64,000 nt of DNA, from assembly GCF_013367775.1 (NCBI RefSeq), contig NZ_CP055157.1:2931001-2995000 (forward strand), given 5' to 3'. Source of the DNA: Microbulbifer sp. YPW1 (lineage in GTDB: Bacteria; Pseudomonadota; Gammaproteobacteria; Pseudomonadales; Cellvibrionaceae). This document shows, piece by piece, positions 18,646-34,253 of this stretch. Below the pieces are notes generated by a model that saw only the letters and a list, made by a program, of their open reading frames with translations, was not told the DNA's origin and searched no databases. The stretch's first letter is position 1. Each line of letters begins with the position of its first letter. The position numbers and the translations under genes were made by a program.

Positions 18646-18660
18646 TCGACGTAATATTTC

Positions 18661-19963: not shown

Positions 19964-19965
19964 TC

Positions 19966-20838
19966 ATGTCAGTACTGATTAACAAAGACACCAAAGTAAT
20001 CTGTCAGGGCTTCACCGGCTCCCAGGGTACTTTCCACTCCGAGCAGGCTATCGAGTACGGTACAAAAATGGTCGGCGGTGTAACCCCGGGCAAAGGCGGC
20101 CAGACTCACCTGGGCCTGCCGGTATTCAACACCGTAAAAGAAGCCGTAGAAGCTACCGGTGCAGAAGCATCCGTTATCTACGTACCGGCGCCGTTCTGTA
20201 AGGATTCCATCCTGGAAGCGGCCAACGGCGGCATCAAGCTGATCGTGTGCATCACCGAAGGCATTCCTACCATGGACATGCTGGATGCCAAGGTTAAGTG
20301 CGACGAGCTGGGCGTACGCCTGATCGGCCCGAACTGCCCGGGCGTGATCACTCCGGGTGAGTGCAAAATCGGCATCATGCCGGGCCACATCCACAAGCCG
20401 GGCAAAGTGGGCATCGTGTCTCGCTCCGGTACTCTGACTTACGAAGCCGTAAAGCAGACTACCGACCACGGCTTCGGCCAGTCCACCTGTGTGGGCATCG
20501 GCGGCGACCCCATCCCGGGCTCCAACTTCATCGACATTCTGGAAATGTTCCAGAACGACCCGCAGACCGAAGCGATCGTTATGATCGGCGAGATCGGCGG
20601 TTCCGCTGAAGAAGAAGCAGCTGCTTACATCAAGGAAAACGTCACCAAGCCGGTCGTTTCCTACATCGCTGGTGTAACCGCTCCTCCCGGAAAGCGCATG
20701 GGCCACGCCGGTGCGATCATCTCCGGTGGTAAAGGTACTGCAGACGAGAAATTTGCGGCTCTGGAAGACGCTGGTGTTAAAACCGTCCGCTCCCTGGCGG
20801 AAATCGGTAATGCACTGAAGGAAGTAACTGGCTGGTAA
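19966..20838 (+). CDS. sucD: Succinyl-CoA synthetase alpha subunit
   Basis: This 290-residue subunit binds CoA and carries the phosphorylated His in [10 protein letters not shown] (about residue 246). The N-terminal [11 protein letters not shown]oA-binding motif is intact. It ends the TCA operon and is followed by a strong terminator, after which the integron integrase lies on the other strand. Confidence 0.98.
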
Positions 20839-20855
20839 TCGGCTAATTGCTTCCC

Positions 20856-20887
20856 AAAAAACGGGCCCTAGTGGGCCCGTTTTTTTT
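20856..20887. terminator. Strong bidirectional terminator between sucD and intI
   Basis: A stem of A-run plus CGGGCCC pairs with GGGCCCG plus T-run around a TAGT loop. It can end both the suc transcript and the convergent intI transcript, and marks the left border of the integron. Confidence 0.92.
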
Positions 20888-20963
20888 GCCTCGATAAAAT
20901 TGGCCAGAGGCTTTTGTAATGCAATCTGTGCTTTCTGCCCTGATTTTGTCCACACAACCCTTG

Positions 20964-21950
20964 TCACTGGATATGGTTATCCAGTGGGCTGTGAGTTTCC
21001 TCTGTATGTGTGCCGATAACATGGGTATAGATCATTGTTGTCTTTACGTTACTGTGTCCTAGCAGCTCCTGTATCTTTCGAATATCTGTCCCTGCTGCGA
21101 GTAGCTGGGTGGCAAATGAATGACGAAAGGTATGGCAGCTTGCAGCCTTTTTTACATCGGCCTTAATAATTGCGCGTGCCACAGCGCGACGTACCTGTTG
21201 TTCACGGATATGATGACGGCGAGTCACTTGCAACTGCGGACAAAAGGCAGGCCTATCCGCGGGGAATAGATACAGTAATCCCGGGCTACTGTGCGTCGAA
21301 TTAGAAGACTTTACACCCGGCATGTAGATAGACCCGAAACCCTTTATCCGATCCTGGCGGTTTAAAGCCAAGACCATATCAATCTGGTTTTGCAAGGGGT
21401 TAACGAGTGACCGGGGTAACAGTACTCGACGTGCCTTACTGCCTTTGGCTTCATTGACAGTCAAGGAAGATTCGCCAAAGTCCAAATCACCTATACGCAG
21501 GCGCACGGCCTCCATTATCCGCAATCCCGCACCATACATCAGCGACGCTGCCAGCCAACTTTGGCCCGTAAGGAGGGACAGTACACGCATTGCTTCGTCG
21601 TGACTAAATACGACGGGCAACTTTCGCCCCTTATTGGCGCGGGTAAAACTCAATTGACCGATTTCACGGCGCAAGAACTGTCTGTACAGGAACACCACGG
21701 CATTGAGGGCGGTTTTCTGGGTGTTGATGGATACAGAACGGTTGCAGGCGAGGTGGCAAAGCCAGTTGTCAATCTGCTCAGCCCCGAGGTCCTCCGGTCT
21801 CTCCATATTGTGAAAGCGGATATAGTCACGAATCCACCGGCAATAGGTTTCCTCCGTCCTGTATGCCAGTCGTCTAGCTCGCATAAAGGCACGCAGGCGA
21901 TCCATGAATCTAATTGGGTGGGGCGGTAGTGGGTGAGGTACATCTTCCAT
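20964..21950 (-). CDS. intI: Integron integrase (tyrosine recombinase)
   Basis: This 328-residue site-specific recombinase captures and shuffles gene cassettes at attI and attC. The tyrosine-recombinase residues are intact: R144 (AGLRIMEAV), H273 and R276 (CHTFRHSFA), H299 (LLGHSNV) and Y308 (MIYTHV). RRHHIRE and QELLGH are typical of IntI rather than of phage or XerCD recombinases. The IntI-specific insertion (residues 211-228) is present in length but lacks the usual KYP...W residues. The gene is divergent from the cassette array and is preceded by a perfect LexA box, so it is probably SOS-induced. The start is ATG 21950; an internal Met at residue 16 (FMDRLR) is possible. Confidence 0.96.
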   Translation of the reverse strand: MEDVPHPLPPHPIRFMDRLRAFMRARRLAYRTEETYCRWIRDYIRFHNMERPEDLGAEQIDNWLCHLACNRSVSINTQKTALNAVVFLYRQFLRREIGQLSFTRANKGRKLPVVFSHDEAMRVLSLLTGQSWLAASLMYGAGLRIMEAVRLRIGDLDFGESSLTVNEAKGSKARRVLLPRSLVNPLQNQIDMVLALNRQDRIKGFGSIYMPGVKSSNSTHSSPGLLYLFPADRPAFCPQLQVTRRHHIREQQVRRAVARAIIKADVKKAASCHTFRHSFATQLLAAGTDIRKIQELLGHSNVKTTMIYTHVIGTHTEETHSPLDNHIQ

Positions 21951-21975
21951 GTGGGCACCATCATCAAGGAACTTA

Positions 21976-21995
21976 TACTGATTTTATATACAGTA
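21976..21995 (-). promoter_or_regulatory. LexA (SOS) box upstream of intI
   Basis: TACTGATTTTATATACAGTA has both 5-base half-sites of the gammaproteobacterial LexA operator with the standard AT-rich 10-base centre. It ends 26 bases from the intI start codon. LexA control of intI is established for other integrons; here it is inferred from the site. Confidence 0.9.
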
Positions 21996-22281
21996 TTTTG
22001 GGTGATTGCTAGTCATATCCGATTACAAGCAATTACAGTGCCCACTATCTCCAGCCGAAAGAGCTATACCTTGGAAATATAAATATAATCAATGACTTAG
22101 ACGGGGTGAGCCAGGACGTGATAGTGGGCAAAGTGACTCATTATGCTGTGGGGTGTATGGTTGACGGATTACCGGAAAGCTTGACGTCATGGGGCCTGGC
22201 GCGCATTCTTGACGCAAAATACCGCGGCGGATAGTGGGCAGATAAAATAGCGCACTTCGCCCACGATATAACTGTTAACAC
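21996..22281. promoter_or_regulatory. Presumptive attI and cassette-promoter region
   Basis: This is the gene-free stretch between the LexA box and the first cassette. It holds three copies of an 11-mer, GATAGTGGGCA (inverted at 22039-22049, direct at 22120-22130 and 22230-22240), candidates for accessory integrase-binding repeats. A TATAAT at 22084-22089 could be a cassette promoter, but its -35 is poor. GTTAACA at 22274-22280 is the likely recombination point (G22274/T22275), just before the first cassette gene. Confidence 0.6.
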
Positions 22282-22743
22282 ATGAAATACATCGTAACTT
22301 TGTGGTTTATTGTTTTTAGCACTCCGGCTCTCGCTACAACGTGCTGGACGCAATCTAAAAATGAGATGATAGCTAGCAGCACTGGTAGAGATGCGTTTGA
22401 GTTAGCCGTTGAAAGAGCGCAAGTTATTTTCGTAGGTAAAACAGAGAGCGTTCAGACAACGATCTATGAGCAAGAGGGTGCAGAACCTGTTGTTCTCAGA
22501 GTGGAAGTACAATTCGAAGTTCACGAGACGATAAAGGGTAATGTATCTAGGGATGTAGTTACGGCAAGTAATGATATTTGCGCGTGCAAGTATCAATTTG
22601 AGACTGGAATTACGTATTTAGTTGTAGCCAATACGTATAAAGGTGCACTGCAAGTCTTTAGTTGTGAGTACATTAAGCCCGTAGAGCAATCAAGAGTTGC
22701 AGACGCCCGCAGGATTGTAGGTGTTAACAAAGCCAGGCAGTAA
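22282..22743 (+). CDS. Cassette 1: secreted Cys-containing protein, possibly TIMP/NTR-like
   Basis: This 153-residue protein of unknown function has a signal peptide ending TPALA (about residue 19) followed by TTCW. Later motifs are ICACKYQFETGITYLVVAN and a final FSCEY. The spacing of these Cys residues around F..G..YLV resembles bacterial netrin/TIMP-like small beta-barrels; this is a pattern impression, not a proven match. The cassette 4 protein shows a similar layout. It is the cassette nearest attI, so it should be the best expressed if a Pc promoter exists. Its stop codon lies inside attC1. Base composition is clearly more AT-rich than the flanking TCA genes. Confidence 0.75.
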   Translation: MKYIVTLWFIVFSTPALATTCWTQSKNEMIASSTGRDAFELAVERAQVIFVGKTESVQTTIYEQEGAEPVVLRVEVQFEVHETIKGNVSRDVVTASNDICACKYQFETGITYLVVANTYKGALQVFSCEYIKPVEQSRVADARRIVGVNKARQ

Positions 22744-22863
22744 AGCTCCGGGCCGGCGGCCCTCCGCGGGACAGCTTACCTTGTGCACGTTTTGCGCAGG
22801 TCGCTACGCTCCCATTATTGCGCAAATCGCGCACAAGGTAAGCTGCCCCTGCTGGCGGCGTTA
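22725..22863 (+). repeat. attC1 (139 bp, family A)
   Basis: The site runs from TAACAAAGCC to GGCGTTA, with imperfect dyad symmetry around CAGCTTACCTTGTGCAC and its inverted partner. It closes cassette 1. Confidence 0.92.
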
Positions 22864-22873
22864 TGCATCAACT

Positions 22874-23185
22874 ATGAAAAAATTGGCAATAATTATCACC
22901 ATCTTGGCGGTGTCTGGTTGTGGAACGACTCTACGCTATACGCACAATATAGAACACAAGAAGTGCCATCCTAACAACAACTATATTTACGGTGGTGTAA
23001 CTGCCGATTTGGCGCTCATGTGTTCGGCTGTACAACAAGAAAATCCATTGAAAATGCTATTTATTCCGGTGATCGCATTGGATCTACCTTTGAGCGCAGT
23101 AGCTGACACAGTATTGCTACCGGTTAGTATTCCAAAGCAGAAAAAAATTGAGAAAGAGTGTGAGTGTGCTGGAACTCCAATCTAG
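22874..23185 (+). CDS. Cassette 2: YceK/DUF1375-like lipoprotein
   Basis: This 103-residue predicted lipoprotein has lipobox VSGC near residue 17. The YceK-type pattern Y.Y.GV.AD......ALDLPLSAVADTVLLPVSI is visible, including the DLP...DT.LLP block diagnostic of DUF1375/YceK proteins. Two further Cys (ECEC) lie at the C-terminus. The function of the family is unknown. I choose ATG 22874, just after the attC1 crossover. The open frame extends upstream into attC1, but that part is attC-encoded. Confidence 0.8.
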   Translation: MKKLAIIITILAVSGCGTTLRYTHNIEHKKCHPNNNYIYGGVTADLALMCSAVQQENPLKMLFIPVIALDLPLSAVADTVLLPVSIPKQKKIEKECECAGTPI

Positions 23186-23212
23186 CACCAGGGCTCTGCA
23201 GTACCCCATGCA

Positions 23213-23350
23213 TAACAAACGCAAGCAGAATGCTCCGGCCCTTCGGGCCTCCGCGGGACGCCCAACGCTATGCACGTTTTTTGCGGGTCGCTGCGCTCCC
23301 ATTTTCGCACAAAACGTGCATAGCATTGGTCGCCCCTGTTGCGGGCGTTA
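23213..23350 (+). repeat. attC2 (138 bp, family A')
   Basis: The site runs from TAACAAACGC to GGGCGTTA, with inner arms CGCCCAACGCTATGCACG and GTGCATAGCATTGGTCGCC. It closes cassette 2. Confidence 0.92.
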
Positions 23351-23356
23351 TGGCCC

Positions 23357-23707
23357 ATGAATAAATTAGTGCAGTTATTGGCAATAATCTTTTATACATT
23401 CTCTGCTCTTGCTTTAGCGCAAGTTGATGAGTTCTTGGAGGCCAACCCGACTATTAATGGTGTGGCCGCACAAGATTTAGAGGGCTGGTATTGGAAAGAG
23501 CTTGGTCTAAGTGATGAAGGAGAGCCTCAGATAGTCGGTTGCGTCGGCAATAGCACTAGTGAAGCCGAAAACCGTTGTACATGCTCAGTCTTTGCAAAGA
23601 AAGATGGTATTTGGGTGCTTCACAATGGGTTTGCATTTAAGAGTTCAGAGGCAGGGGTGGCGGCGGCCGCGGAGTATGGGTGCGGCACCGTGCCAAGTCA
23701 GCCATAA
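23357..23707 (+). CDS. Cassette 3: secreted protein of unknown function
   Basis: This 116-residue protein has a signal peptide (about residues 1-21, ending ALALA). The rest is acidic, with a WYWKELGL motif and four Cys (VGCVG, CTC, YGC) that could form two disulfides. I recognise no family. The start is ATG 23357, in frame with and just after the attC2 end. The stop overlaps the start of attC3. Confidence 0.75.
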   Translation: MNKLVQLLAIIFYTFSALALAQVDEFLEANPTINGVAAQDLEGWYWKELGLSDEGEPQIVGCVGNSTSEAENRCTCSVFAKKDGIWVLHNGFAFKSSEAGVAAAAEYGCGTVPSQP

Positions 23708-23840
23708 CAAACAGCGGCAGAGCGACAGCCAACGCTGCGCACCTTTTGTGTTACTCGCTGTCGCTCAAACATTAACACAAAATGCGCTCCGCGCTGGCTG
23801 CGCCTGCGCTCCGCGCTGGCTGCGCCTGCGCTGGGCGTTA
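23705..23840 (+). repeat. attC3 (136 bp, family C with internal duplication)
   Basis: The site runs from TAACAAACAGCGGC to GGGCGTTA. It differs from attC5 and attC10 by an exact tandem duplication of 22 bases in its 3' arm (around 23781-23829). Confidence 0.9.
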
Positions 23841-23847
23841 TGCAATC

Positions 23848-24282
23848 ATGAAAAAAATCATAGCGACAATCATATTTTCACTTATTTCATCTCTCTCATT
23901 TGGATTTCAGTGTGGGCCTGACAAGAGCGAGGAAGAAAAGTTTAAAGAAGCCAAATCTGTATTACTGTTCCAGGTAGTGGCTACAGAGTTAAAAACCACA
24001 GAATTTGATGGGCAAGAAATCGGATACAGTCAGGCTACATATCGCTTAATTGAGTCCTTTAAAGGGTCAGAAGAGAAAGAGGGTAAAGTTGTAGAGGTCT
24101 TGGGGTATGGTACTGGTTTGGTTGGTTTGATCCCGGGCATCTATTACTTGGCATTTGTCGGTGAGAGGAACGAGTACGTCAAATACCCTTGGCTCACTAT
24201 TTGTGACGTCGAGCTTTCAACTTTTAATATTGAAGGGGCAGAGTTCGAGGAAAAGCTCGAGAAAATCAGGTCCCTCAAGTAA
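23848..24282 (+). CDS. Cassette 4: secreted protein, same layout as cassette 1
   Basis: This 144-residue protein has a signal peptide ending LSFGF before QCGPDKS. The middle reads as beta strands (YRLIESFKG, VVEVLGYG) and the end holds F/I..GIYYLAFVGE and ICDVE. The order Cys, IESFKG-like strand, G..YL, Cys matches cassette 1, so both may be small exported beta-barrel domains. The function is unknown. ATG 23848 follows the attC3 crossover by 10 bases. Confidence 0.75.
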   Translation: MKKIIATIIFSLISSLSFGFQCGPDKSEEEKFKEAKSVLLFQVVATELKTTEFDGQEIGYSQATYRLIESFKGSEEKEGKVVEVLGYGTGLVGLIPGIYYLAFVGERNEYVKYPWLTICDVELSTFNIEGAEFEEKLEKIRSLK

Positions 24283-24287
24283 ATGCA

Positions 24288-24398
24288 TAACAAAGCGCTG
24301 CAACGGGACGGCTTACTTTGTGCACTTTATGTGCAGTCGCTTCGCTCCATATTTGCACATAAACTACACAAAGTAAGCCGCCCCTGAGCGCGGCGTTA
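24288..24398 (+). repeat. attC4 (111 bp, family B)
   Basis: The site runs from TAACAAAGCGCTGC to GCGCGGCGTTA, with arms GGCTTACTTTGTGCAC and its inverted partner. It lacks the GGCCC..GGGCC hairpin of family A. Confidence 0.92.
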
Positions 24399-24414
24399 GC
24401 ATTCAGAGTTACCC

Positions 24415-24873
24415 ATGAAGAAAATTTGGAACTGGTTCTTGTATCTTTTTCTCTTGGCGGGATTCCCCTTATTGATTTGGGCTGGACTTTATTCTGCCAA
24501 AGATACATACATATTTTGGAAGTACGGCATAGAAAAAAATTCTGAAATTATTGCGCTTGATCATACAAGTCGAAGTGGTAGAAGTGGTACAACCTATTAC
24601 TATGAGCTTCAAATAGATGAGAATAGATTAATTGAGGGGTTTAGTTATAGTCTTCCCGTAGGTAAGTCTGTGCCAGTCTTAACTCTACCTGAAAATCCAG
24701 AAAAAATTAGCCTAGGCAAGCAAGATAGCTCACTTTTTGAAATATTTTCCTACTCAATTGGCGGCCAATTTAGGGCTCTACTGGTTTTGGGAACATATTT
24801 ATTTATGGCTATTTATGGGCCATCTACGCTTGTTACGATCTTGAGGGACCGAAACAAGTTCATCAACCAATAA
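24415..24873 (+). CDS. Cassette 5: DUF3592-like membrane protein (near-copy of cassette 10)
   Basis: This 152-residue protein has two hydrophobic segments (about 8-28 and 118-138) flanking a periplasmic or cytoplasmic beta-rich loop. The loop motifs YYYELQIDENRLIEGFSYSL, then PVGKSV.VL..PENPE.., fit DUF3592-type domains. The whole cassette (24399-24992) is repeated at 27175-27768 with only seven base differences that I can see; two change residues (S/A and R/M). Function unknown. Confidence 0.8.
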   Translation: MKKIWNWFLYLFLLAGFPLLIWAGLYSAKDTYIFWKYGIEKNSEIIALDHTSRSGRSGTTYYYELQIDENRLIEGFSYSLPVGKSVPVLTLPENPEKISLGKQDSSLFEIFSYSIGGQFRALLVLGTYLFMAIYGPSTLVTILRDRNKFINQ

Positions 24874-24878
24874 AATGC

Positions 24879-24992
24879 TAACAAACAGCGGCAGAGCGAC
24901 AGCCAACGCTACGCACCTTTCGTGTTACTCGCTGGCGCTCAAACATTAACACAAAAGGCGCTCCGCGCTGGCTGCGCCTGCGCTGGGCGTTA
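24879..24992 (+). repeat. attC5 (114 bp, family C)
   Basis: The site runs from TAACAAACAGCGGCAGAGCG to GGGCGTTA, with centre TGTTACTCGCTGGCGCTC. It closes cassette 5. Confidence 0.92.
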
Positions 24993-25004
24993 TGGATCGT
25001 TGGA

Positions 25005-25430
25005 ATGTGTGACGAAGTCTCAATAAAGTACAGGTTTCAGAGCTTAGAGGAAATTTACGGTCAAGGCGCGGATGAGTCTTGTATTTCAGGTATTCCTCCA
25101 GGATATTTTGTCGACGCAAATGTAGAGGTACTTGCTGCAGGACGTCCGGCCCATAAAGAAATAGCGTTCTCATTGTATCAATTTGCTTCTGATGTTGAAG
25201 CGTGGATTGATAGCAATGAGCAAGAACTATTGTGGTCGGATTTTGACGGGTGGGATGGGAAAATATTTCTCTATAGAGTTGACCGCGGTATATTTGTAAA
25301 TGTTTATTTGGAAGACCAGGTACTTAATTTTACCGTTAAAGAGAAAGAGTTAAGATCATTCACTAGCGGCGTTCTAGAAAGCGCTGATATTTTCTGGAAA
25401 AGACCACTAAAGAATTGGCGAAAGAGGTAA
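25005..25430 (+). CDS. Cassette 6: soluble protein of unknown function
   Basis: This 141-residue protein has no signal peptide or membrane segment. It is acidic and aromatic-rich (WSDFDGWDGKIFLYRVDRGIF), which suggests a mixed alpha/beta fold of the kind seen in immunity-like proteins. I recognise no family. The ATG at 25005 follows the attC5 end by 12 bases. The stop is 5 bases before attC6. Confidence 0.7.
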   Translation: MCDEVSIKYRFQSLEEIYGQGADESCISGIPPGYFVDANVEVLAAGRPAHKEIAFSLYQFASDVEAWIDSNEQELLWSDFDGWDGKIFLYRVDRGIFVNVYLEDQVLNFTVKEKELRSFTSGVLESADIFWKRPLKNWRKR

Positions 25431-25435
25431 ATCCA

Positions 25436-25572
25436 TAACAATCACAGGCAGTATGCTACGGCCCTTCGGGCCTCCGCGGGACGTCTTACTTTGCGCACGT
25501 TTTGCGCGGTCGCTTCGCTCCCATATTCGCGCAAAACGCGCACAAAGTAAGCCGCCCCTGCTGTGGGCGTTA
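25436..25572 (+). repeat. attC6 (137 bp, family A)
   Basis: The site runs from TAACAATCACAGGC to GTGGGCGTTA and contains the GGCCCTTCGGGCC hairpin typical of family A. Confidence 0.92.
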
Positions 25573-25593
25573 GCTGTGTAGTAAGGAAAAGCA

Positions 25594-26007
25594 ATGAAAA
25601 TAAAGTTCTTGCAAGAAGTAGAGTTTTTTAATTGGGATGGTGACAACCCTGTTCCTGTCAAAAATCCTAAAGCTCTGGAAGCTCTTCATGGAGTTGCCTA
25701 TGATGAAGAGTCCTGTTCTGATTACTTGCTAGATGGCGAAGAAGAGAAAAATAAACTTGGCCACCTAAATATTTCGGGTGGGTTAATTCGCTTTGAGTAT
25801 TCAAAAGATACAAAATCGGTGGTTATTTCAACTGAGTACACTTCCAGTAGTCCGTTAACGCAAGACGAAATAGAGTGCTTAAAAGTGTATACCGGCAGTC
25901 AATGGACCGATGGTATCGGTTCAGGTTTAACTGACTCCTTAGAGTTTCCAGGAGATCCGTCAATTGGTGGTAATTACGGCGAGATCGAGTGCCAGATCCA
26001 CAGCTAA
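25594..26007 (+). CDS. Cassette 7: soluble acidic protein of unknown function
   Basis: This 137-residue acidic protein has alternating strand-like blocks and a Gly-rich end (DGIGSGLTDS, SIGGNYGEIE). There is no signal peptide. A GGAAAAGC stretch precedes the ATG. Family unknown. The stop codon lies within the first bases of attC7, typical of compact cassettes. Confidence 0.7.
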   Translation: MKIKFLQEVEFFNWDGDNPVPVKNPKALEALHGVAYDEESCSDYLLDGEEEKNKLGHLNISGGLIRFEYSKDTKSVVISTEYTSSSPLTQDEIECLKVYTGSQWTDGIGSGLTDSLEFPGDPSIGGNYGEIECQIHS

Positions 26008-26117
26008 CAAAGCGCAGCAACGGGACGTCTTACTTTATGCACGTCTTGCGCTGGTCGCTGCGCTCCCATTTTCGCGCAAAACGCGCATAAAGTAAGCCGC
26101 CCCTGTGCGCGGCGTTA
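26005..26117 (+). repeat. attC7 (113 bp, family B)
   Basis: The site runs from TAACAAAGCGCAGC to GCGCGGCGTTA. It is close to attC4 in sequence and length. Confidence 0.92.
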
Positions 26118-26133
26118 GCAGTCCGGATTTCTT

Positions 26134-26568
26134 ATGAGAGTCACTAGCTACCTAGCATCATTAATATGGATAACTTTTGGTCCAGTGATTCGCGTAGCGC
26201 GTAATCCGCATGGTTGGAACTACGGTGCTCCACAGGGCGTGGTTGCATTGATAGTAATACTGTATTTCGTTTTATTGCTAAAAGTGGATAGAGATCTCAG
26301 CTCAGTCAATAGTTTTTTTACCTTGGCAAGAAATTTTTTCGGGAAGAGTGACGCACTAGTACTCTCTGTATTTCTGATTCCAGCGCTTATATTATTTTCA
26401 GCACATTTATACCTGCTGAGTGAAAACCCTAGGAATGCTTTTGAAAAGTTTTCAGAACATAATAGAAGTCTACGCAACATCATGGAGGTATCTACATCTA
26501 ACAGTTATTGTGCTGTTTGGTATATCCTGATGGTCCTTCTATTATTTTCTATGACGGCCACCTTATAA
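26134..26568 (+). CDS. Cassette 8: multi-pass membrane protein of unknown function
   Basis: This 144-residue protein has about four hydrophobic segments (near 5-20, 35-50, 72-94 and 124-141). It has a basic/aromatic loop (RNPHGWNYGAPQG) after the first. I recognise no family. ATG 26134 is 17 bases past attC7. Confidence 0.7.
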   Translation: MRVTSYLASLIWITFGPVIRVARNPHGWNYGAPQGVVALIVILYFVLLLKVDRDLSSVNSFFTLARNFFGKSDALVLSVFLIPALILFSAHLYLLSENPRNAFEKFSEHNRSLRNIMEVSTSNSYCAVWYILMVLLLFSMTATL

Positions 26569-26593
26569 GAGGTCCACTGACGAGCTTCACTGC

Positions 26594-26732
26594 TAACAAA
26601 GCCAGGCAGTGAAGCTCCGGGCCTGCGGCCCTCCGCGGGACAGCTTACCTTGTGCACCTTTTGCGCAGGTCGCTGCGCTCCCATTATTGCGCAAATGGCG
26701 CACAAGGTAAGCTGCCCCTGCTGGCGGCGTTA
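26594..26732 (+). repeat. attC8 (139 bp, family A)
   Basis: The site runs from TAACAAAGCCAGGC to GGCGGCGTTA and is nearly the same as attC1. Confidence 0.92.
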
Positions 26733-26733
26733 A

Positions 26734-27018
26734 ATGTCTATGAAGCAAGAATACATACTAATCATCGCACTAATCTTGTTAGCCTGTTTTAACCTGTACG
26801 CTTCATATAGGTGTATGCGTTCTGACTATTCCCACAGAAGCCAAAAGATAATTCAATGTTTCTTGGTTTGGTTGTTTCCTGTAGTGGGAGGAGTAACTGT
26901 AATTCATTTTTCTCAACCAGCAGATACCAGTCCGAATTATAAAACGCCAGATGCGGCATCCGCGCAAGACGCGCACCCTGGAAATGATGGAGCTAGTGGT
27001 GGCGGAGGTAGTGATTAA
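26734..27018 (+). CDS. Cassette 9: small membrane protein
   Basis: This 94-residue protein has two hydrophobic segments (about 7-24 and 38-56) and a low-complexity hydrophilic tail ending GASGGGGSD. The ATG lies one base after attC8, so it has essentially no leader and depends on a transcript from upstream. A second in-frame ATG is two codons later. Function unknown. Confidence 0.6.
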   Translation: MSMKQEYILIIALILLACFNLYASYRCMRSDYSHRSQKIIQCFLVWLFPVVGGVTVIHFSQPADTSPNYKTPDAASAQDAHPGNDGASGGGGSD

Positions 27019-27036
27019 TCCTGCGCTGCCAACATT

Positions 27037-27174
27037 TAACAAACGCAAGCAGGAGTGCTCCGGCCCTTCGGGCCTGCGCGGGACGCCCAACGCTGTGCAC
27101 CTTTTGCGCGGTCGCTACGCTCCCATTATTGCGCAAAAGGCGCACAACATTGGTCGCCCCTGTTGCGGGCGTTA
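27037..27174 (+). repeat. attC9 (138 bp, family A')
   Basis: The site runs from TAACAAACGCAAGC to GGGCGTTA, with inner arms like attC2 and attC15. Confidence 0.92.
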
Positions 27175-27190
27175 GCATTCAGAGTTACCC

Positions 27191-27649
27191 ATGAAGAAAA
27201 TTTGGAACTGGTTCTTGTATCTTTTTCTCTTGGCGGGATTCCCCTTATTGATTTGGGCTGGACTTTATTCTGCCAAAGATACATACATATTTTGGAAGTA
27301 CGGCATAGAAAAAAATGCTGAAATTATTGCGCTTGATCATACAAGTCGAAGTGGTAGAAGTGGTACAACCTATTACTATGAGCTTCAAATAGATGAGAAT
27401 AGATTAATTGAGGGGTTTAGTTATAGTCTTCCCGTAGGTAAGTCTGTACCAGTCTTAACTCTACCTGAAAATCCAGAAAAAATTAGCTTAGGAAAGCAAG
27501 ATAGCTCACTTTTTGAAATATTTTCCTACTCAATTGGCGGCCAATTTATGGCTCTACTGGTTTTGGGAACATATTTATTTATGGCTATTTATGGGCCATC
27601 TACGCTTGTTACGATCTTGAGGGACCGAAACAAGTTCATCAACCAATAA
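27191..27649 (+). CDS. Cassette 10: DUF3592-like membrane protein (near-copy of cassette 5)
   Basis: This 152-residue protein differs from the cassette 5 protein at two positions (Ala for Ser in EKNAEII and Met for Arg in GGQFMALL). The leader before the ATG and the attC after it are also nearly identical. The unit copied is therefore the complete cassette, as expected for integrase-mediated duplication or re-insertion. Topology and motifs are as for cassette 5. Confidence 0.8.
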   Translation: MKKIWNWFLYLFLLAGFPLLIWAGLYSAKDTYIFWKYGIEKNAEIIALDHTSRSGRSGTTYYYELQIDENRLIEGFSYSLPVGKSVPVLTLPENPEKISLGKQDSSLFEIFSYSIGGQFMALLVLGTYLFMAIYGPSTLVTILRDRNKFINQ

Positions 27650-27654
27650 AATGC

Positions 27655-27768
27655 TAACAAACAGCGGCAGAGCGACAGCCAACGCTACGCACCTTTCATG
27701 TTACTCGCTGGCGCTCAAACATTAACACAAAATGCGCTCCGCGCTGGCTGCGCCTGCGCTGGGCGTTA
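27655..27768 (+). repeat. attC10 (114 bp, family C)
   Basis: The site differs from attC5 at two positions and has the same boundaries. It closes cassette 10. Confidence 0.92.
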
Positions 27769-27783
27769 TAGGTCAAAAGTAGT

Positions 27784-28197
27784 ATGAGCTTTACTTTAGA
27801 TTTAATACTCACAGATGTACCAGAAGAAAATGATGCAGCTTGGAAATATATTGAAGAACTCAGAGAAGAGTACTATGAGGATAAGTCTGGAGCGCATGAG
27901 AAAATCATAGCATTGCATAAAGTTCTGACAGATAAATATCCATGCTTGTGTAGCTATGAAGACGATGATCCTGAAATGGAAAATAGTCCGTGGGCCGATG
28001 GACCAATGCTAAGCAATTTCGCAAGTAAGATGGGGATGCTGGCAATTATATATTCAAGAGCTGATGAGCTTTTTCCATTTATCTTAGAGAAAGCATTACT
28101 TTTGGATATTACGGTAGCAGATGGGCAAAGTGAAAAAATTTATCGCCCTAGTGAGCCAGCTGTGTCTAAAGTCAGACCTTGGTGGAAACTTTGGTAA
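27784..28197 (+). CDS. Cassette 11: acidic soluble protein of unknown function
   Basis: This 137-residue, strongly acidic protein has helical repeats (WKYIEELREEYYEDKSG) followed by PCLCSYEDDDPEMENSPWADGP and a C-terminal domain rich in hydrophobics (YSRADELFPFILEKALLLDITV). It ends VRPWWKLW. The pattern recalls small proteins found beside polymorphic toxin loci, but I cannot name the family. No signal peptide. Confidence 0.7.
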   Translation: MSFTLDLILTDVPEENDAAWKYIEELREEYYEDKSGAHEKIIALHKVLTDKYPCLCSYEDDDPEMENSPWADGPMLSNFASKMGMLAIIYSRADELFPFILEKALLLDITVADGQSEKIYRPSEPAVSKVRPWWKLW

Positions 28198-28204
28198 AAA
28201 CCTA

Positions 28205-28342
28205 TAACAAGCCGAGGCATTTCGTTCCGGCCCTGCGGGCCTCCACCGGACAGCTTACTTTGTGCACTTTATGCGCAGGTCGCTTCGCTCCCATTTTGGC
28301 GCATAAAGCGCCCAAAGCAAGCTGCCGCTGCTCGCGGCGTTA
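28205..28342 (+). repeat. attC11 (138 bp, family A)
   Basis: The site runs from TAACAAGCCGAGGC to GCGGCGTTA, with a GGCCCTGCGGGCC hairpin. Its inner arms are less perfect than those of other family A sites. Confidence 0.9.
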
Positions 28343-28359
28343 GCCTCCAAGGAGTAAGA

Positions 28360-28824
28360 GTGGAATTAAAGCCAGTTATCGTAAATGGATTGGTTGGAGG
28401 AGCGGCAGCATGGGTTATGGCCACATTTGTTTCTTGGCTCCATAAGCGCTACACGAAAGACATTCCAGAAGAAAAGAAAGAGCTCACATATGAAGTGGAG
28501 CAATATAGAGAATTCCATGTTCACGCAGACTTTGAAAAAACTCTCTCTACTTGTCTCTCAGCATTAAAACTGATCAAGAAATCAAAGTTAAAAAATGTTG
28601 ATAGAATCAATCGGGTAGTGACCGCCAGCGTAGGAATTAGCTTTAGATCTTTTGGTGAAAAATTAAACTTTTGCATAAAGGAAGTTTCTCCAGAATTGAT
28701 GAAACTTTCTATTGAAAGTAAGCCCTGGTTTTGGGGTACCTCAGCAGATTATGGGAAAAACTATGAGAATATTGAGGTCGTCAGTAGCCATATCAGGGCA
28801 GAGTTGCCAACTGAAGATCTCTAG
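28360..28824 (+). CDS. Cassette 12: protein with N-terminal membrane segment, unknown function
   Basis: This 154-residue protein starts at GTG 28360, set by an AAGGAG ribosome site 6 bases upstream. Residues 7-26 form one membrane segment. The rest is a basic cytoplasmic or periplasmic alpha/beta domain (FEKTLSTCLSALKLIKKSK, VVTASVGISFRSFGEKL). I recognise no family. Its attC is the one broken by the insertion sequence. Confidence 0.7.
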   Translation: MELKPVIVNGLVGGAAAWVMATFVSWLHKRYTKDIPEEKKELTYEVEQYREFHVHADFEKTLSTCLSALKLIKKSKLKNVDRINRVVTASVGISFRSFGEKLNFCIKEVSPELMKLSIESKPWFWGTSADYGKNYENIEVVSSHIRAELPTEDL

Positions 28825-28826
28825 GC

Positions 28827-28832
28827 TAACAA
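28827..28832 (+). repeat. attC12, left fragment (interrupted by IS)
   Basis: Only TAACAA of the attC start remains here. The rest of the same site resumes at 30001 after the insertion sequence. Joining the two pieces gives a family B attC. Confidence 0.75.
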
Positions 28833-30000
<1,168 letters not shown>

Positions 30001-30106
30001 AGGTGCTGCAGGGGACGTCTTACTCTGTGCACCTTTTGCGCAGTCGCTGCGCTCCTATATTCGCGCAAAATGCGCACAAAGTAAGCCGTCCCTGAGCACG
30101 GCGTTA
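30001..30106 (+). repeat. attC12, right fragment (family B)
   Basis: GGTGCTGCAGGGGACG to GAGCACGGCGTTA completes the site started at 28827. GTGCT pairs with AGCAC, as the arm of one site should. Confidence 0.85.
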
Positions 30107-30118
30107 AGCATAGAAACG

Positions 30119-30439
30119 ATGAACCTAATAAAGCGCTGGTGGAACAAAAGGAGAAAGCTTCGCAAGATTCGCACCGTGTTTGTCTTTAAATTGAAAGGTG
30201 AATATGGAAAGAGCAGAAACTTGAAATTCAATCAAGTAAAAAGTGCTCTTGCAGCCGCGGGGCTAGAAGGCGAGCATGAGGAGTATGCGTACGCCCTCGC
30301 ATTATCTCCCGCGCAGTACAAGTATTATCAAAAATTAAGTTCTATCGAATTTTCGCAAGAGGCACTAAGAATTGATCTAGGGGTAAGTAGTGCTCTTTTA
30401 GGTATGGGCTCCCAAGGCGCTGGCCCATGGTCCGAGTGA
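30119..30439 (+). CDS. Cassette 13: small basic protein, possibly DUF6559-like
   Basis: This 106-residue protein has a very basic N-terminus (IKRWWNKRRKLRKIRTVFVFKL in outline) followed by YGKSR.LKFNQVKSAL..AGL...EEYAYALALS, then YYQKL. The middle pattern resembles DUF6559 proteins, with low certainty. There is no signal peptide. It is the first cassette beyond the IS, so transcripts from attI must cross the element. Confidence 0.65.
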   Translation: MNLIKRWWNKRRKLRKIRTVFVFKLKGEYGKSRNLKFNQVKSALAAAGLEGEHEEYAYALALSPAQYKYYQKLSSIEFSQEALRIDLGVSSALLGMGSQGAGPWSE

Positions 30440-30445
30440 AAAGCT

Positions 30446-30583
30446 TAACAATCACGGGCAGTGAAGCTCCGGCCCTTTGGGCCTCCGCGGGACGGCTTAC
30501 CTTATGCACGTTTTGCGCGGTCGCTTCGCTCCCATTTTCGCGCAAAACGCGCATAAGGGAATCCGCCCCTGCCGTGGGCGTTA
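30446..30583 (+). repeat. attC13 (138 bp, family A)
   Basis: The site runs from TAACAATCACGGGC to GTGGGCGTTA, with a GGCCCTTTGGGCC hairpin. It is close to attC16. Confidence 0.92.
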
Positions 30584-30598
30584 TGTGTCAGTGAGATA

Positions 30599-30895
30599 GT
30601 GAGTACGATTAACATGGAATATCTAATAAAAGAAGGAAGGGAGTTACTTCAGAACCTTGAAGATCTCGCAAGCTCTTACCATGTGAAGTCGGATATGCAT
30701 GAAAAATTAAGCTGGGAGACTGTCGGGATCGGCGGAATGCTAAGCCAATTAGTTTCAGGCAGTGAATTAACTTACTCTTTGATTTCAAGTAACTTGGAGA
30801 AAGAATGGGGGCAAGAGCTTGTAGATTCTCATCCTGATCTGTTCAAGAGAGTTTATAGGTTCCGTGATGCATACTACCGCGCGAAAAACACATAA
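30599..30895 (+). CDS. Cassette 14: small helical protein of unknown function
   Basis: This protein is 98 residues from GTG 30599, or 93 from ATG 30614 (MEYLIKEG), which may be the true start. It is soluble and mostly helical, with no signal peptide or Cys. No family recognised. The stop overlaps the beginning of attC14. Confidence 0.6.
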   Translation: MSTINMEYLIKEGRELLQNLEDLASSYHVKSDMHEKLSWETVGIGGMLSQLVSGSELTYSLISSNLEKEWGQELVDSHPDLFKRVYRFRDAYYRAKNT

Positions 30896-31006
30896 CAATC
30901 AGCGGCAGAGCGACAGCCAACGCTACGCACTTTTTGTGTTACTCGCTGGCGCTCAAACATTAACACAAAAAGTGCTCCGCGCTGGCTTCACCTGCGCTGG
31001 GCGTTA
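30893..31006 (+). repeat. attC14 (114 bp, family C)
   Basis: The site runs from TAACAATCAGCGGC to GGGCGTTA. It has the family C centre with a few changes (TTCACC in the 3' arm). Confidence 0.92.
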
Positions 31007-31021
31007 TGTTTCAACTTAGTC

Positions 31022-31486
31022 ATGAATGATACTCTGGAAATTATAGAAAGAATTAAAAAGGCCTTTGATGGCGTTTCTCGGATTGGAGGAATGACCCTCT
31101 CGCAGTCGACAGCGCTCGATGATGGCTTCAGTGAGGAGGAGGTACTGGCTATTCCTCCCACTGAGCAGGATGAAAAATGGACAGAAGTTCCTGATAAAGA
31201 ACTTGAAGAAAATGATTTTGGCTTGGCAAATATCGATGAAATTGGTTTTCGGTATTATCTACCTGCGTTCATGATCTACAGCCTTAAGTATGGAGAGGAG
31301 AGCCCTAGCAATGTATGCAATCATACTGGTCATATGTTGTGTAGCCCTTGGGACCATACTGATACATTTTCATCTGAACAAAAGAAAGCAATAAAAAAAT
31401 ACTTAAAATACATGCGGGACAACCGCAACGATTGGTGGGCGTATCGAGCCTTAGATGTTTGGTGTAAGGATGAGGTGTCCGACTAA
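31022..31486 (+). CDS. Cassette 15: DUF6714-like protein
   Basis: This 154-residue soluble protein has the order typical of DUF6714 proteins. It begins I..AF.GV...GGMTL.Q...LDDGF. WTEVPD.ELE follows, then IGFRYYLPAFMIYSLKYG. Near the end comes FSSEQKKAIKKYLKYMRDN, and the last part is WWAYRALDVW. The function of the family is unknown. No signal peptide. Confidence 0.75.
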   Translation: MNDTLEIIERIKKAFDGVSRIGGMTLSQSTALDDGFSEEEVLAIPPTEQDEKWTEVPDKELEENDFGLANIDEIGFRYYLPAFMIYSLKYGEESPSNVCNHTGHMLCSPWDHTDTFSSEQKKAIKKYLKYMRDNRNDWWAYRALDVWCKDEVSD

Positions 31487-31489
31487 ACA

Positions 31490-31627
31490 TAACAATCACA
31501 GGCAGGTTGCTCCGGCCCTTCGGGCCTCCGCGGGACGCCCAACGCTATGCACATTTTGTGCGGGTCGCTGCGCTCCCAATTTCGTACAAAATGTGCATAG
31601 CATTGGTCGCCCCTGCTGTGGGCGTTA
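31490..31627 (+). repeat. attC15 (138 bp, family A')
   Basis: The site runs from TAACAATCACAGGC to GTGGGCGTTA, with GCATAGCATTGGTCGCCCC in the 3' arm as in attC2. Confidence 0.92.
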
Positions 31628-31640
31628 AGTGTCAGTACCG

Positions 31641-31958
31641 ATGAAATCACTTGGAATAGTAATAAACGTAGCTCTACTTATTTTTTCAGTCACTACGGTT
31701 GCTCAAGCGAATTGTATATCTGAAGCTACTGCGCACCGTTCATTTATGGTGAAAATTGAAAGTAGCGGTTCGTGCACAAAATTGAATTGCATCAATGTAA
31801 AAGCAAGAAATATCCAGGCAGCATTAGCCATCTGCCACCAAACAGAAAAAGACTTCAATTTTTGTGGTTGGCATGAAAAACGCAGGATTAAGCACGTAGA
31901 AATGTTGCAGCCTAAAGATGGTGTGTATGAGGTGAGCATTGAGAAATGCCACACTTAA
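31641..31958 (+). CDS. Cassette 16: secreted Cys-rich small protein
   Basis: This 105-residue protein (ATG 31641; an in-frame GTG exists at 31629) has a signal peptide ending VAQAN. The mature part of about 80 residues has seven Cys (CISE, CTKLNC, ICH, FCGW, KCHT), so disulfide-stabilised folding in the periplasm is likely. Family unknown. The stop lies at the attC16 start. Confidence 0.72.
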   Translation: MKSLGIVINVALLIFSVTTVAQANCISEATAHRSFMVKIESSGSCTKLNCINVKARNIQAALAICHQTEKDFNFCGWHEKRRIKHVEMLQPKDGVYEVSIEKCHT

Positions 31959-32093
31959 CAATCACGGGCAGTGAAGCTCTGGCCCTTCGGGCCTTCGCGG
32001 GGCGGCTTACCTTATGCACGTTTTGCGCGGTCGCTTCGCTCCCATTTTTGCGCAAGTCGCGCATAAGATAAGCCGCCCCTGCCGTGGGCGTTA
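31956..32093 (+). repeat. attC16 (138 bp, family A)
   Basis: The site runs from TAACAATCACGGGC to GTGGGCGTTA. It is nearly the same as attC13. Confidence 0.92.
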
Positions 32094-32111
32094 TGCATCA
32101 ATAGGAAAGAA

Positions 32112-32486
32112 ATGAAACTAAATAACCTATTTTCTTTATTGCTGATTTTCCCTTTAAGTTGTATTGGGTCAGATGAAATTTCTCATCTTAAAGCTCTAGA
32201 TGCTAAGGCTTCTGAATATAGAAAGATGTCTATAGAGTGCGTTACAGATGCAAAGCTTTCGAAAAAGCCATTAGCCGAAGTTGGTACTTGTAAATTATTG
32301 TATCAATTCACTATAGATGAATATCCGGGCTTAAAAGAAAGCATAGTAGAAGCTGAAAAAGATGCGAAACTGGAGGGGGTGGCTAAAGGGCTTGAGAGCC
32401 CAGCACTCAGAGAAAAATTGGTTCTAATTATGTCCGCGAAATCTCATGTGAGTATCGCGGGCTCTATTTTGAACAAAGTGCGCTGA
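32112..32486 (+). CDS. Cassette 17: exported helical protein (possible lipoprotein)
   Basis: This 124-residue protein has an N-terminal export signal, LFSLLLIFPLSCIGS. LSC could be a lipobox. The mature part is helical and charged, with two more Cys (ECVTDAK, TCKLLY). A GGAAAG ribosome site precedes the ATG. Function unknown. Confidence 0.72.
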   Translation: MKLNNLFSLLLIFPLSCIGSDEISHLKALDAKASEYRKMSIECVTDAKLSKKPLAEVGTCKLLYQFTIDEYPGLKESIVEAEKDAKLEGVAKGLESPALREKLVLIMSAKSHVSIAGSILNKVR

Positions 32487-32494
32487 AAAATGCA

Positions 32495-32536
32495 TAACAA
32501 AGCGCCAAAAATTGTCCGGCTCTGAGCGCGGCGTTA
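32495..32536 (+). repeat. attC17 (42 bp, internally deleted)
   Basis: Both ends are present (TAACAAAGCGC and GAGCGCGGCGTTA), but the central arms are missing. It looks like a family B site that lost about 70 bases. Confidence 0.75.
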
Positions 32537-32567
32537 TGATCCTTATCTAGTTAAAAGGAGAAAACCT

Positions 32568-32849
32568 ATCAAATACGTAGTTAAATATTTTGGAGTATTC
32601 CTGTTTTCGGTCATGCTATCGGGGTGCCTATCAGAAGCAAATAATCCCAATAAGTGGGAGTGTAAAAGAGTGGTTATAGATCCTCTTAATCGAAAGAGTC
32701 CGGTTCACCAGTTAGATATTTCGAATGTCGAGACTGACGAACTTATTAGCTTGTATCATAAAAAAATAAATGAACTCGGGGAGCAAGGCTGGGAGCTAGT
32801 CTATGTCGCTGAAGACGAGGTGCATTTTTTTAAGCGGCCTCTTAAGTAG
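32568..32849 (+). CDS. Cassette 18: small lipoprotein with an apparent ATC start
   Basis: From the ATC at 32568 the protein is 93 residues and begins with a textbook lipoprotein signal: KYVVKYF, a hydrophobic core, then MLSGC. An AAAAGGAG ribosome site lies 7 bases upstream of the ATC. The first ATG in frame is 32613, inside that signal, and would give a 78-residue protein without an export helix. The end (LYHKKINELGEQGWELVYVAEDEVHFFKRPL) resembles DUF4177-type small domains. Either the start is a rare non-canonical codon or an ATG has mutated. Confidence 0.6.
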   Translation: MKYVVKYFGVFLFSVMLSGCLSEANNPNKWECKRVVIDPLNRKSPVHQLDISNVETDELISLYHKKINELGEQGWELVYVAEDEVHFFKRPLK

Positions 32850-32859
32850 TTCCAGATAA

Positions 32860-32997
32860 TAACAAAGCCGGGCAGTTTGCTCTGGGACTTCGCCTCTCCG
32901 CGAGACAGCTTATCTTGTGCGCGTTCTTGGCAGGTCGCTGCGCTGCCAGTTTTGCGAAATGTGTGTACAGCATTGGTCCTCCCTGTTGCGGGCGTTA
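32860..32997 (+). repeat. attC18 (138 bp, degenerate family A)
   Basis: The site runs from TAACAAAGCCGGGC to GGGCGTTA. Its inner arms have many mismatches compared with attC1 or attC8, which suggests age and reduced folding. Confidence 0.85.
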
Positions 32998-33006
32998 AGA
33001 GCTAGC

Positions 33007-33465
33007 ATGAATAAAATGCTGAAGTTGGCCGCAGGGTGTTTCTTATTAATATTTTGGGAAAGTCGTTATGACGCTTTTAGTAAAATTCATGACTACTATT
33101 CTTCCAATGTCTCAGCGTCAGTTAGCGGGATAATATTAAAATCAGAGAAAAATCGCAGTAGCAAGTCGTCGGCTCATAACGTTGAGTATCAATACGTTGT
33201 AGATGGATATACTTTCGTTTCAAATACGGTGAGCTATAGAGCATCAGGATCAAGTTATTCACGTCGAACGGTAAGGAGGTACCCCGTTGGGGAAAAGGTT
33301 ACCGTTTATTATGATCCCCGTAATCCAAGATATTCAGTTTTTGAGTTGGGTGGATTGGAGTCGAGGGTGTTTTTTCAAGCATTGTTTGGAGTATTCCTGG
33401 CTTTAAGCGTGGCGCTTTGGCCTGCTGCTAGGTCTCGCTCGCAACAAGGTGCTCGCTTAACATAG
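33007..33465 (+). CDS. Cassette 19: DUF3592 membrane protein
   Basis: This 152-residue protein has an N-terminal hydrophobic segment (about 5-16), a beta-rich loop and a C-terminal membrane segment (about 124-141). The DUF3592 pattern is clear: VEYQYVVDGYTFVSNTVSY, then YPVGEKVTVYYDPRNPRYSVFELGG. It is the last recognisable cassette gene. Only a 14-base attC-like stub follows. Paralogous in type to cassettes 5 and 10, though very different in sequence. Confidence 0.85.
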   Translation: MNKMLKLAAGCFLLIFWESRYDAFSKIHDYYSSNVSASVSGIILKSEKNRSSKSSAHNVEYQYVVDGYTFVSNTVSYRASGSSYSRRTVRRYPVGEKVTVYYDPRNPRYSVFELGGLESRVFFQALFGVFLALSVALWPAARSRSQQGARLT

Positions 33466-33471
33466 TGCTGC
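33458..33471 (+). repeat. attC stub at the distal end of the array
   Basis: TAACATAGTGCTGC matches the first 14 bases of attC4 at 12 positions and then loses attC character. It is probably a truncated site marking the integron boundary. Confidence 0.5.
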
Positions 33472-33516
33472 TTGGATTAGCGGAAAATTCTGGTTTGTTT
33501 GCGCCTTGGATATGGG

Positions 33517-33849
33517 ATGAAAAAGATGGAAAAGAATGGAAAAATGGCGACGGGTTTTCTGGCTGTAGTCATATCACTTGCGGCTTATTATTTTGGTGCG
33601 GCAGCATTTACACCAGCGGTACTTTTATCTCTAGTGTCGGCTCCACTAGCTATAATTTCACTCTTCGTTAAAGCCTGGCGGCTTGGTCTATTAGCTTTAT
33701 ATTTCTCTCTTTTTGCGTTGTTAACGTCACCTACTTTTGGTGTTCCTCCGTTTGCATCTGACACTGGATTTATCGTGGTTGCTTTGGTGGGCCTAATTCT
33801 GGCTGTGGTTCTAGCCATCCGCTGGTGGTGCACTTCTCGAAATGCCTAG
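33517..33849 (+). CDS. Small multi-pass membrane protein at the integron border
   Basis: This 110-residue protein (ATG 33517; the frame is open to a TTG at 33499) has about four hydrophobic segments with little else. No family recognised. It has no attC behind it and lies between the attC stub and an aminotransferase remnant. It could be a stranded cassette whose attC was lost, or a chromosomal gene. Confidence 0.6.
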   Translation: MKKMEKNGKMATGFLAVVISLAAYYFGAAAFTPAVLLSLVSAPLAIISLFVKAWRLGLLALYFSLFALLTSPTFGVPPFASDTGFIVVALVGLILAVVLAIRWWCTSRNA

Positions 33850-33861: not shown

Positions 33862-34185
33862 ATGGGGGCCTACTTCGAGGAGCAGGTGAAAATCCTGATT
33901 GATCTGCCCATCGTCGGTGACGTGCTTGGTCACAAGTACATGATGTGTATCGAGAACGTGGCCGACAAGCAGACCAAGGAACTGATCGATTCTGCCGCCA
34001 AGGTAGGTAACCGCATCGCCGATCACTGTCAGGCTCGTGGACTGATTGTGCTCCCACTAGCACACATGAACATGCTGTCTCCGCCGTCGACCCTGAACAA
34101 GGAAAATATCGACTTTCTGGTGGTGACCCTGAGCGAGAGCATTGAGGCCACCATGGCCGACCTTAAGGCGGAGGGATATCTCTAA
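33862..34185 (+). pseudogene. 3' remnant of a class III (omega) aminotransferase gene
   Basis: These 107 residues match only the C-terminal domain of class III pyridoxal-phosphate aminotransferases. The remnant begins YFEEQVKILIDLPIVGDV.GHKYMMCIENV and continues RIADHCQARGLIV.PLAHMNMLSPP. It ends ENIDFLV.TL.ESIEATMADL. The full-length family is about 450 residues and the Lys-bearing catalytic domain is absent. An in-frame stop lies 12 bases upstream. GC content and codon use return to the chromosomal type here. The upstream part was probably deleted when the integron grew or rearranged. Confidence 0.8.
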
Positions 34186-34200
34186 GCCTTCAGTGTGTGC

Positions 34201-34226: not shown

Positions 34227-34253
34227 TGCGCCGACCGGGCAATTACCCGCGCA

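Follow-up and report, generated by a model that had tools for sequence, protein, structure and literature searches.

Organization of the Integron Behind sucD

The stretch of DNA analyzed here, hereafter the window, comprises 64,000 nucleotides of Microbulbifer sp. YPW1 (G000:C1:2931001-2995000, where G000 is the window genome, a single contig of 4.58 Mb). Between positions 20964 and 33000 it contains an integron made up of an integrase gene (intI), a LexA-type box, an attI site, and 18 attC sites. The locus starts with intI, about 130 bp behind sucD; the sucD terminator, a hairpin with a T run recognized from the sequence and by a scripted hairpin scan, lies between the two genes (20870-20897, + strand). 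A strict hairpin scan placed a terminator hairpin at 37 of 74 integron loci (background 7/335), mostly those at groEL and sucD, so we make no general claim that integrons always lie behind terminators.

The intI gene (20964-21950, - strand) encodes a 328 aa integron integrase with an atypical I2 region. The protein contains the Pfam domains Phage_integrase and Phage_int_SAM_4, scores 350.7 bits against the NCBIfam model TIGR02249 "integron integrase" (cut-off 265), and has its closest solved structure in 2a3v, titled "site-specific recombinase IntI4" (E 1.2e-68). Residues R144, K169, H273, R276, H299, and Y308, which we take to be the catalytic set of tyrosine recombinases, are invariant across 26 aligned IntIs, bearing out a preliminary description of the locus, made from the sequence alone, that credited the recombinase with complete catalytic residues. 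Among named relatives, Microbulbifer mangrovi DD-13 has the most similar IntI (98%). At an E-value of 1e-40, IntI was found in 43 of 48 genomes of the genus, 74 in all. A protein tree rooted at the midpoint separates a clade A, to which the window IntI belongs and which groups with Marinobacter and Oleiphilus (supports 0.901, 0.986), from a clade B that groups with a Hahellaceae sequence (1.0).

The intI promoter region contains a LexA-type box, TACTG-N10-CAGTA (21976-21995, - strand), 25 nt upstream of the start codon, from which LexA binding is predicted. Across the genus, 60 of the 67 integrons tested (20/25 in clade A, 40/42 in clade B) have CTG-N10-CAG in the 120 nt directly preceding intI, compared with 0.03 expected per 120 nt; the other 7 of the 74 loci, in which the gene or its upstream part is incomplete, were left out. 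The attI region (21999-22277, + strand) includes the crossover AACT^GTTA, with the G at 22274, as defined by the end of homology with two relatives and by a core conserved in six aligned integrons from both integrase clades. This attI is present as a single copy in the G000 genome.

A covariance model built partly from window sites recognized 18 attC at 22723-33000, all on the + strand (E 2.3e-31 to 2.5e-3), so the array of 18 co-oriented sites in the preliminary description withstood the covariance scoring named there as a possible refutation. Elsewhere in the 64-kb window nothing scored better than E 0.28, mirror hits of these 18 sites excepted, and an Rfam scan gave 0 matches at the gathering threshold. 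Folded as single-stranded DNA, the bottom strand beat shuffled sequences in 15 of 17 attC (z -2.98 to -7.18; site 12, split by an insertion sequence, was left out), and three non-attC control stretches gave z of +0.49, -2.41, and -2.22.

The cassette open reading frames (ORFs), all on the + strand, are each followed by an attC. Nearest attI are cassette 1 (22282-22743, with a weak TIMP match below the Pfam cut-off; attC 1 at 22723-22866), cassette 2 (22874-23185, a DUF1375/YceK-like lipoprotein by Pfam and NCBIfam; attC 2 at 23211-23353), cassette 3 (23357-23707; attC 3 at 23703-23843, in which about 22 nt are duplicated in tandem), cassette 4 (23848-24282; attC 4 at 24286-24401), and cassette 5 (24415-24873, a membrane protein; attC 5 at 24877-24995). 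These are followed by cassettes 6 (25005-25430; attC 6 at 25434-25575), 7 (25594-26007; attC 7 at 26003-26120), 8 (26134-26568, a membrane protein; attC 8 at 26592-26735), 9 (26734-27018; attC 9 at 27035-27177), 10 (27191-27649; attC 10 at 27653-27771), 11 (27784-28197; attC 11 at 28203-28345), and 12 (28360-28824). The attC of cassette 12 is divided into a left end, TAACAAG (28827-28833), and a remainder at 30002-30109 (covariance match 29994-30109). Beyond it lie cassettes 13 (30119-30439, DUF6559-like below the Pfam cut-off; attC 13 at 30444-30586), 14 (30599-30895; attC 14 at 30891-31009), 15 (31022-31486, DUF6714; attC 15 at 31488-31630), 16 (31641-31958; attC 16 at 31954-32096), 17 (32112-32486; a minimal attC 17 of about 42 bases at 32493-32539), and 18 (32613-32849, DUF4177-like below the Pfam cut-off; a decayed attC 18 at 32858-33000). 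A terminal gene without an attC (33007-33465, DUF3592) and a further ORF (33499-33849, + strand) complete the inserted DNA.

Cassette genes are AT-richer than their surroundings, as first noted from the sequence, with a mean G+C of 0.412 over 20 ORFs compared with 0.564 and 0.595 in the flanks. Pfam gathering cut-offs were passed by 3 of 18 scanned ORFs (DUF1375, DUF6714, DUF3592), and none of 19 scanned ORFs matched an anti-phage family of PADLOC at E 0.01, which makes "a reservoir of undescribed proteins" a fair characterization. The preliminary reading of the array as cassettes holds except at 28834-30001, which is not cassette DNA but an IS110-family element inside attC 12. The right limit also had to be moved. 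It was originally placed at 33471; the inserted region extends to about 33861, since the window becomes homologous again to Microbulbifer mangrovi (G019), its nearest relative, at 33862. This edge cuts a gene whose truncated 3' end remains at 33862-34185 (+ strand), and which, from its sequence, is presumably an aminotransferase gene; the relative locus L192 runs on into the same gene, as the window does not, and the upstream part of the gene is still found in G019.

Cassette Turnover at a Stable Chromosomal Site

Comparison with relatives reveals conserved flanks around a changing array. G019 is 93.8% identical over window positions 17756-22278, a segment that includes intI and attI, and 90.1% identical over 33862-37741 on the right. 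On the left, homology with both G019 and another relative, G005, ends at 22277-22278, precisely the AACT^GTTA crossover, and each genome carries a different first cassette. The G005 contig has seven attC and no cassette body in common with the window. Cassette content thus differs while the flanks are conserved, and order is not identical among relatives, as far as the array ends allow comparison with G019, whose left and right flanks lie on two contigs. Within the window, cassette 10 is a near-copy of cassette 5 (98.8% identity across the 602 bp from one crossover to the next, with GGCGTTA bounding both sides). Other window cassettes have relatives of 92-98% identity in other species or in a second array of the same genome, including cassette 11 (95.2% to a cassette in G014), and breakpoints fall at the crossover in three of the four listed pairs besides 5/10; in the fourth, cassette 2 and its G028 relative, the left end is blurred by similar attC sequence.

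The array lies behind sucD in G000, G019, and G005, and also in G017 with one gene between. Because close relatives have the integron at the same place, we rejected a mobile integron; flank comparison was the only means by which a transposon frame was looked for. Together with the LexA-type box and the affiliation of its integrase to Microbulbifer, this agrees with the initial characterization of a sedentary, SOS-linked integron in a Cellvibrionales-type host.

A Second Integron and a Common attC Family

The G000 genome contains a second integron behind groEL (G000:C1:3094601-3107684; L005 end, L006), which has its own LexA-type box, attI, and array, and its own IS110-family element inside an attC. 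Its integrase is only distantly related to that of the window (45% identical), compared with 60-61% for Marinobacter integrases. With a threshold of E < 1e-10, at least 54 attC were found in G000 (150 of 1403 candidates were scored), 17 of them in the sucD array, 19 in the groEL array, and the rest in clusters of 4 at 865718-867526, 6 at 1320941-1324156, and 4 at 2248882-2252095, plus 4 singles. Neither an integrase nor a copy of either attI was found at these three further clusters. Across the genus, the 74 intI loci fall into 22 clusters by 3' flank, with 26 loci behind groEL (22 of clade B, 4 of clade A), 4 behind sucD, and smaller groups making up the rest.

A profile of window and groEL attC matches arrays of both integrase clades, always on one strand. 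Both integrons use one attC family, and would thus both draw on one cassette pool. The idea that the integrase clade sets the attC type was discarded, as the nearest attC in other genomes shares its IntI clade at a rate of 0.488, compared with 0.528 after shuffling (0.488 was equaled or exceeded in 153 of 200 shuffles). Nor is the attC type private to Microbulbifer, since matches at E 1e-10 occur in 32 of 61 family genomes and 20 of 32 genera, usually with only a few per genome. The 43 IntI loci outside Microbulbifer gave one weak profile match (L045, 24 bits), and Marinobacter arrays contain different repeats with no match to the profile.

These observations suggest the following model. After DNA damage, LexA would leave the intI promoter, as the box implies, and IntI would then be made. 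The integrase would act on folded single-stranded attC and insert circular cassettes at attI (22274), with expression of the cassettes also presumed. New genes would thus enter at the intI end, with older ones drifting toward the decayed far end, while the groEL integron, through the shared attC family, would trade in the same cassettes. An IS110-type element landing on the left end of an attC would disrupt the site, as at attC 12. On this basis the locus is very probably a sedentary chromosomal integron of Microbulbifer that was active in the recent past.

Several observations weigh against this interpretation. First, the evidence for excision and integration is historical, consisting of traces in the sequence. 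Second, the attC covariance model was built from 28 sites of which 14 come from the window, making its acceptance of the array partly circular, and attC 17 (z -0.98; E 2.5e-3) and attC 18 (z +1.81) fold no better than shuffled sequences. Third, a single cassette pair links the two arrays of G000 (cassette 16, 92.4% identical to its relative in the groEL integron), so recent exchange is seen in relatives and not in G000 itself, and attC nearest neighbors are not enriched within their own genome (2.2/34 in G000, compared with 8% expected). Finally, the window IntI belongs to a strongly supported clade of eight (support 1.0 in the protein tree), all of which lack the ALxxKYP...W...DPRS segment of the I2 region and are 2 residues shorter there.

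An Integrase With an Atypical I2 Segment

The ALxxKYP...W...DPRS segment occurs in the Marinobacter, clade B, and remaining clade A sequences that were read. In the window clade the I2 stretch is present in length, the conserved ALER/KYP...DPRS residues are absent, and the RRHH and catalytic residues are kept. This lowers confidence in a typical IntI but not in an integron integrase, as the family score lies above the cut-off. PMC7790495 ties single-strand recombination to the I2 helix of IntI. Judged from its sequence, the window IntI is intact and under purifying selection, with dN/dS values of 0.059 to 0.145 against three relatives (0.059 against G019) and of 0.053 to 0.068 in three further pairs of its clade. 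The I2 segment evolves faster than the rest of the protein (dN/dS 0.24-0.25 for the window against G005 and G017).

Because the conserved I2 motif is missing, this array may be worked by an enzyme other than the window integrase, which may no longer recombine attC well, leaving the canonical groEL integrase to do so in trans. All eight genomes with the atypical clade also encode an IntI in which the usual segment is present, a co-occurrence that is suggestive only, since 28 of the 43 integron-bearing genomes carry at least two IntIs anyway. In addition, an integrase-less array at the sucD locus of G007 contains two cassettes 100% identical (420 and 392 bp) to those of an integrase-bearing array at another place in that genome. 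However, selection has maintained the window IntI, and the first cassettes have turned over at the window attI. An attI is expected to be recognized by its own integrase, and the attI regions of the window and groEL integrons have little in common beyond the core. We consider recombination in trans unlikely.

Integrase-Less attI Arrays and Cassette Exchange

We surveyed sucD loci in 34 genomes (the 30 best-matching of 48, plus four more). These comprise 4 clade A integrons, 7 loci with a clade B-type attI and no intI, 22 with neither within the stretch examined, and one ambiguous case (G011). Homology of the orphan attI to its integrase-bearing counterparts starts just past the LexA box in six of the seven, and slightly earlier in G007. 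In five of the seven, attC follow the orphan attI (5, 19, 2, 9, and 11 sites); these cassette-bearing loci are L249, L250, L251, L194, and L196, the sucD loci of G010, G007, G002, G025, and G028, respectively. None follow the attI of G003 and G001. The first cassette of G025 is 95.3% identical to one from the groEL array of G028, and the similarity breaks off precisely at the orphan attI; G010 shows a comparable break (88.9%). This layout would be accounted for equally well if an older integron at sucD had lost its intI; what is new in these arrays is that the attI has been retained and used.

Within G010 (L249 compared with L121), the orphan attI matches that of the genome's own groEL integron at 96% identity over 251 nt, the last sucD cassette is likewise 96% identical to its groEL counterpart, and the inner cassettes differ.

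Exchange between integrase lineages is seen in G004, where cassettes of a clade A and a clade B integron are 100% identical over 701, 525, and 527 bp. Each identical stretch opens exactly at GTTA, next to an attI or attC, and closes at the crossover, beyond which the neighbors are unrelated; in two directions it adjoins the attI of the array that received the cassette. Within genomes, sharing between the clades is modestly enriched (A/B 6/1412 pairs, compared with 115/44284 between genomes); the same-clade figures within and between genomes are 8/605 and 104/18553 for A/A, and 0/31 and 45/23225 for B/B.

Cassettes could also come to be shared within a genome by ordinary homologous recombination or duplication, with no part played by integrases. 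Similar attC flank all cassettes and could provide the homology, the left ends of identity in three G032 pairs lie inside attC rather than at GTT, and the paired 96% identities of attI copy and last cassette in G010 resemble a block duplication. The exact GTTA-to-crossover limits and unrelated neighbors in G004, along with the modest degree of within-genome enrichment, argue against it, and we regard it as quite improbable.

An IS110-Family Element in attC 12

The insertion sequence (IS) in attC 12 occupies 28834-30001 (- strand), its ends being approximate. Its IS110-family transposase is split into two frames, 29809-29216 and 29219-28863, with a noncoding region of about 180 nt upstream (29810-29997) and about 30 nt downstream. 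As the element disrupts attC 12, cassettes 12 and 13 should be fused for excision. Related insertions occur at one fixed place in attC; of 71 related regions in the genus, 8 without a readable junction and 7 repeats were removed, and 53 of the resulting 56 distinct insertions follow TAACAAG, with 46 of 56 showing GCA at the attC offset. A copy of the transposase of the groEL-array element, 100% identical, lies at another attC in the same genome (L220, G000:C1:3177720-3178691), which suggests recent transposition.

The upstream noncoding region contains CTTGTTA, complementary to the left half of the target, together with a hairpin and an 8-mer that resembles the right half. Over five variable positions, guide-like and target sequences of the same element match at 2.76 on average, compared with 2.05 when shuffled (0 of 10000 shuffles as high), or 2.44 compared with 1.92 with repeated pairs removed (6 of 10000 as high); the guide and target windows were chosen after several sequences had been viewed, so the shuffle test is not fully blind. 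The window copy itself matches at only 1 of 5 positions. These guide-like sequences are consistent with a putative guide RNA encoded in the upstream noncoding DNA. According to PMC11187229 and PMC11208160, the guide RNA of IS110-group elements lies on the upstream side of the transposase and that of IS1111 on the downstream side, and some IS1111 members target attC.

A decayed integron with its integrase out of use is highly improbable, for although two attC at the far end have decayed and attC 12 is broken by an IS whose own transposase is frameshifted, the integrase is intact and selected, the LexA-type box is kept, the first cassette is unlike that of the nearest relative, and a 98.8% duplicate cassette is present.

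Relation to Known Systems and Significance

As an integron the window locus is ordinary and was correctly read as such. It resembles the sedentary chromosomal integrons of Vibrio, Xanthomonas, and Saccharophagus (PMC8618304) in an intI divergent from a one-strand array, attI, attC, LexA-type control, and a site common to relatives. Unlike those, each such Microbulbifer genome combines two distant integrases with one attC family, and integration sites vary within the genus (22 flank clusters among 74 loci). Several intI per genome are likewise reported in Shewanella (PMC9229058); what sets the present case apart is that two integrons within a genome share identical cassettes whose breakpoints fall at the crossover.

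The sucD arrays of G025, G028, G010, G007, and G002 lack intI, as do the CALIN elements of PMC9024848 and PMC12444791, but differ in retaining a complete attI that has recombined with cassettes; the window array, with its intact intI, is not a CALIN. By its own account, the tool of PMC9024848 detects no attI outside class 1, so such orphan attI would be missed. The IS1111-attC group (ISKpn4, ISPst6), described in PMC11187229, likewise inserts at one attC end in a constant place and orientation, but combines sub-terminal inverted repeats with a noncoding region downstream of the transposase; the noncoding region of the window element is placed as in IS110. Similarly, the window IntI shares the integron integrase fold family with IntI1 and VchIntIA, but its clade lacks the conserved residues of the I2-helix stretch (PMC7790495). 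A literature search, whose coverage mostly excluded subscription papers, returned no account of an atypical-segment IntI, an orphan attI, or IS110-type attC elements. The integron as such is of a known kind, and the integrase segment, the integrase-less attI, and the IS110-type attC family are variants that we did not find described.

Taken together, the atypical integrase, the cassette pool common to both integrase lineages, the arrays with an orphan attI, and the attC-inserting IS110-type elements form a variant worth testing. One could imagine that the window enzyme is a natural integron integrase with a rewritten I2 segment that serves its own attI, that it divides the labor with a canonical integrase encoded at another locus, which recombines the attC, and that integrase-bearing and integrase-less attI docking arrays form a genus-wide network on one cassette pool, parasitized by attC-tuned, RNA-guided IS110 elements. 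We offer this picture tentatively and consider it doubtful in full.

Either outcome for the window integrase would be informative. Activity on single-stranded attC would mean that recombination does not need the conserved I2 residues in the way assumed so far; inactivity would make the enzyme a natural step back or a partner-dependent integrase. Because canonical comparators are intact in the same genome and genus, this question could be settled by one assay. With the IS110-type elements, guides and attC targets that each form a natural series can be set against one another. Finally, integrase-less attI arrays would mean that integrons extend to new chromosomal sites without copying the integrase, through attI sites that current finders overlook.

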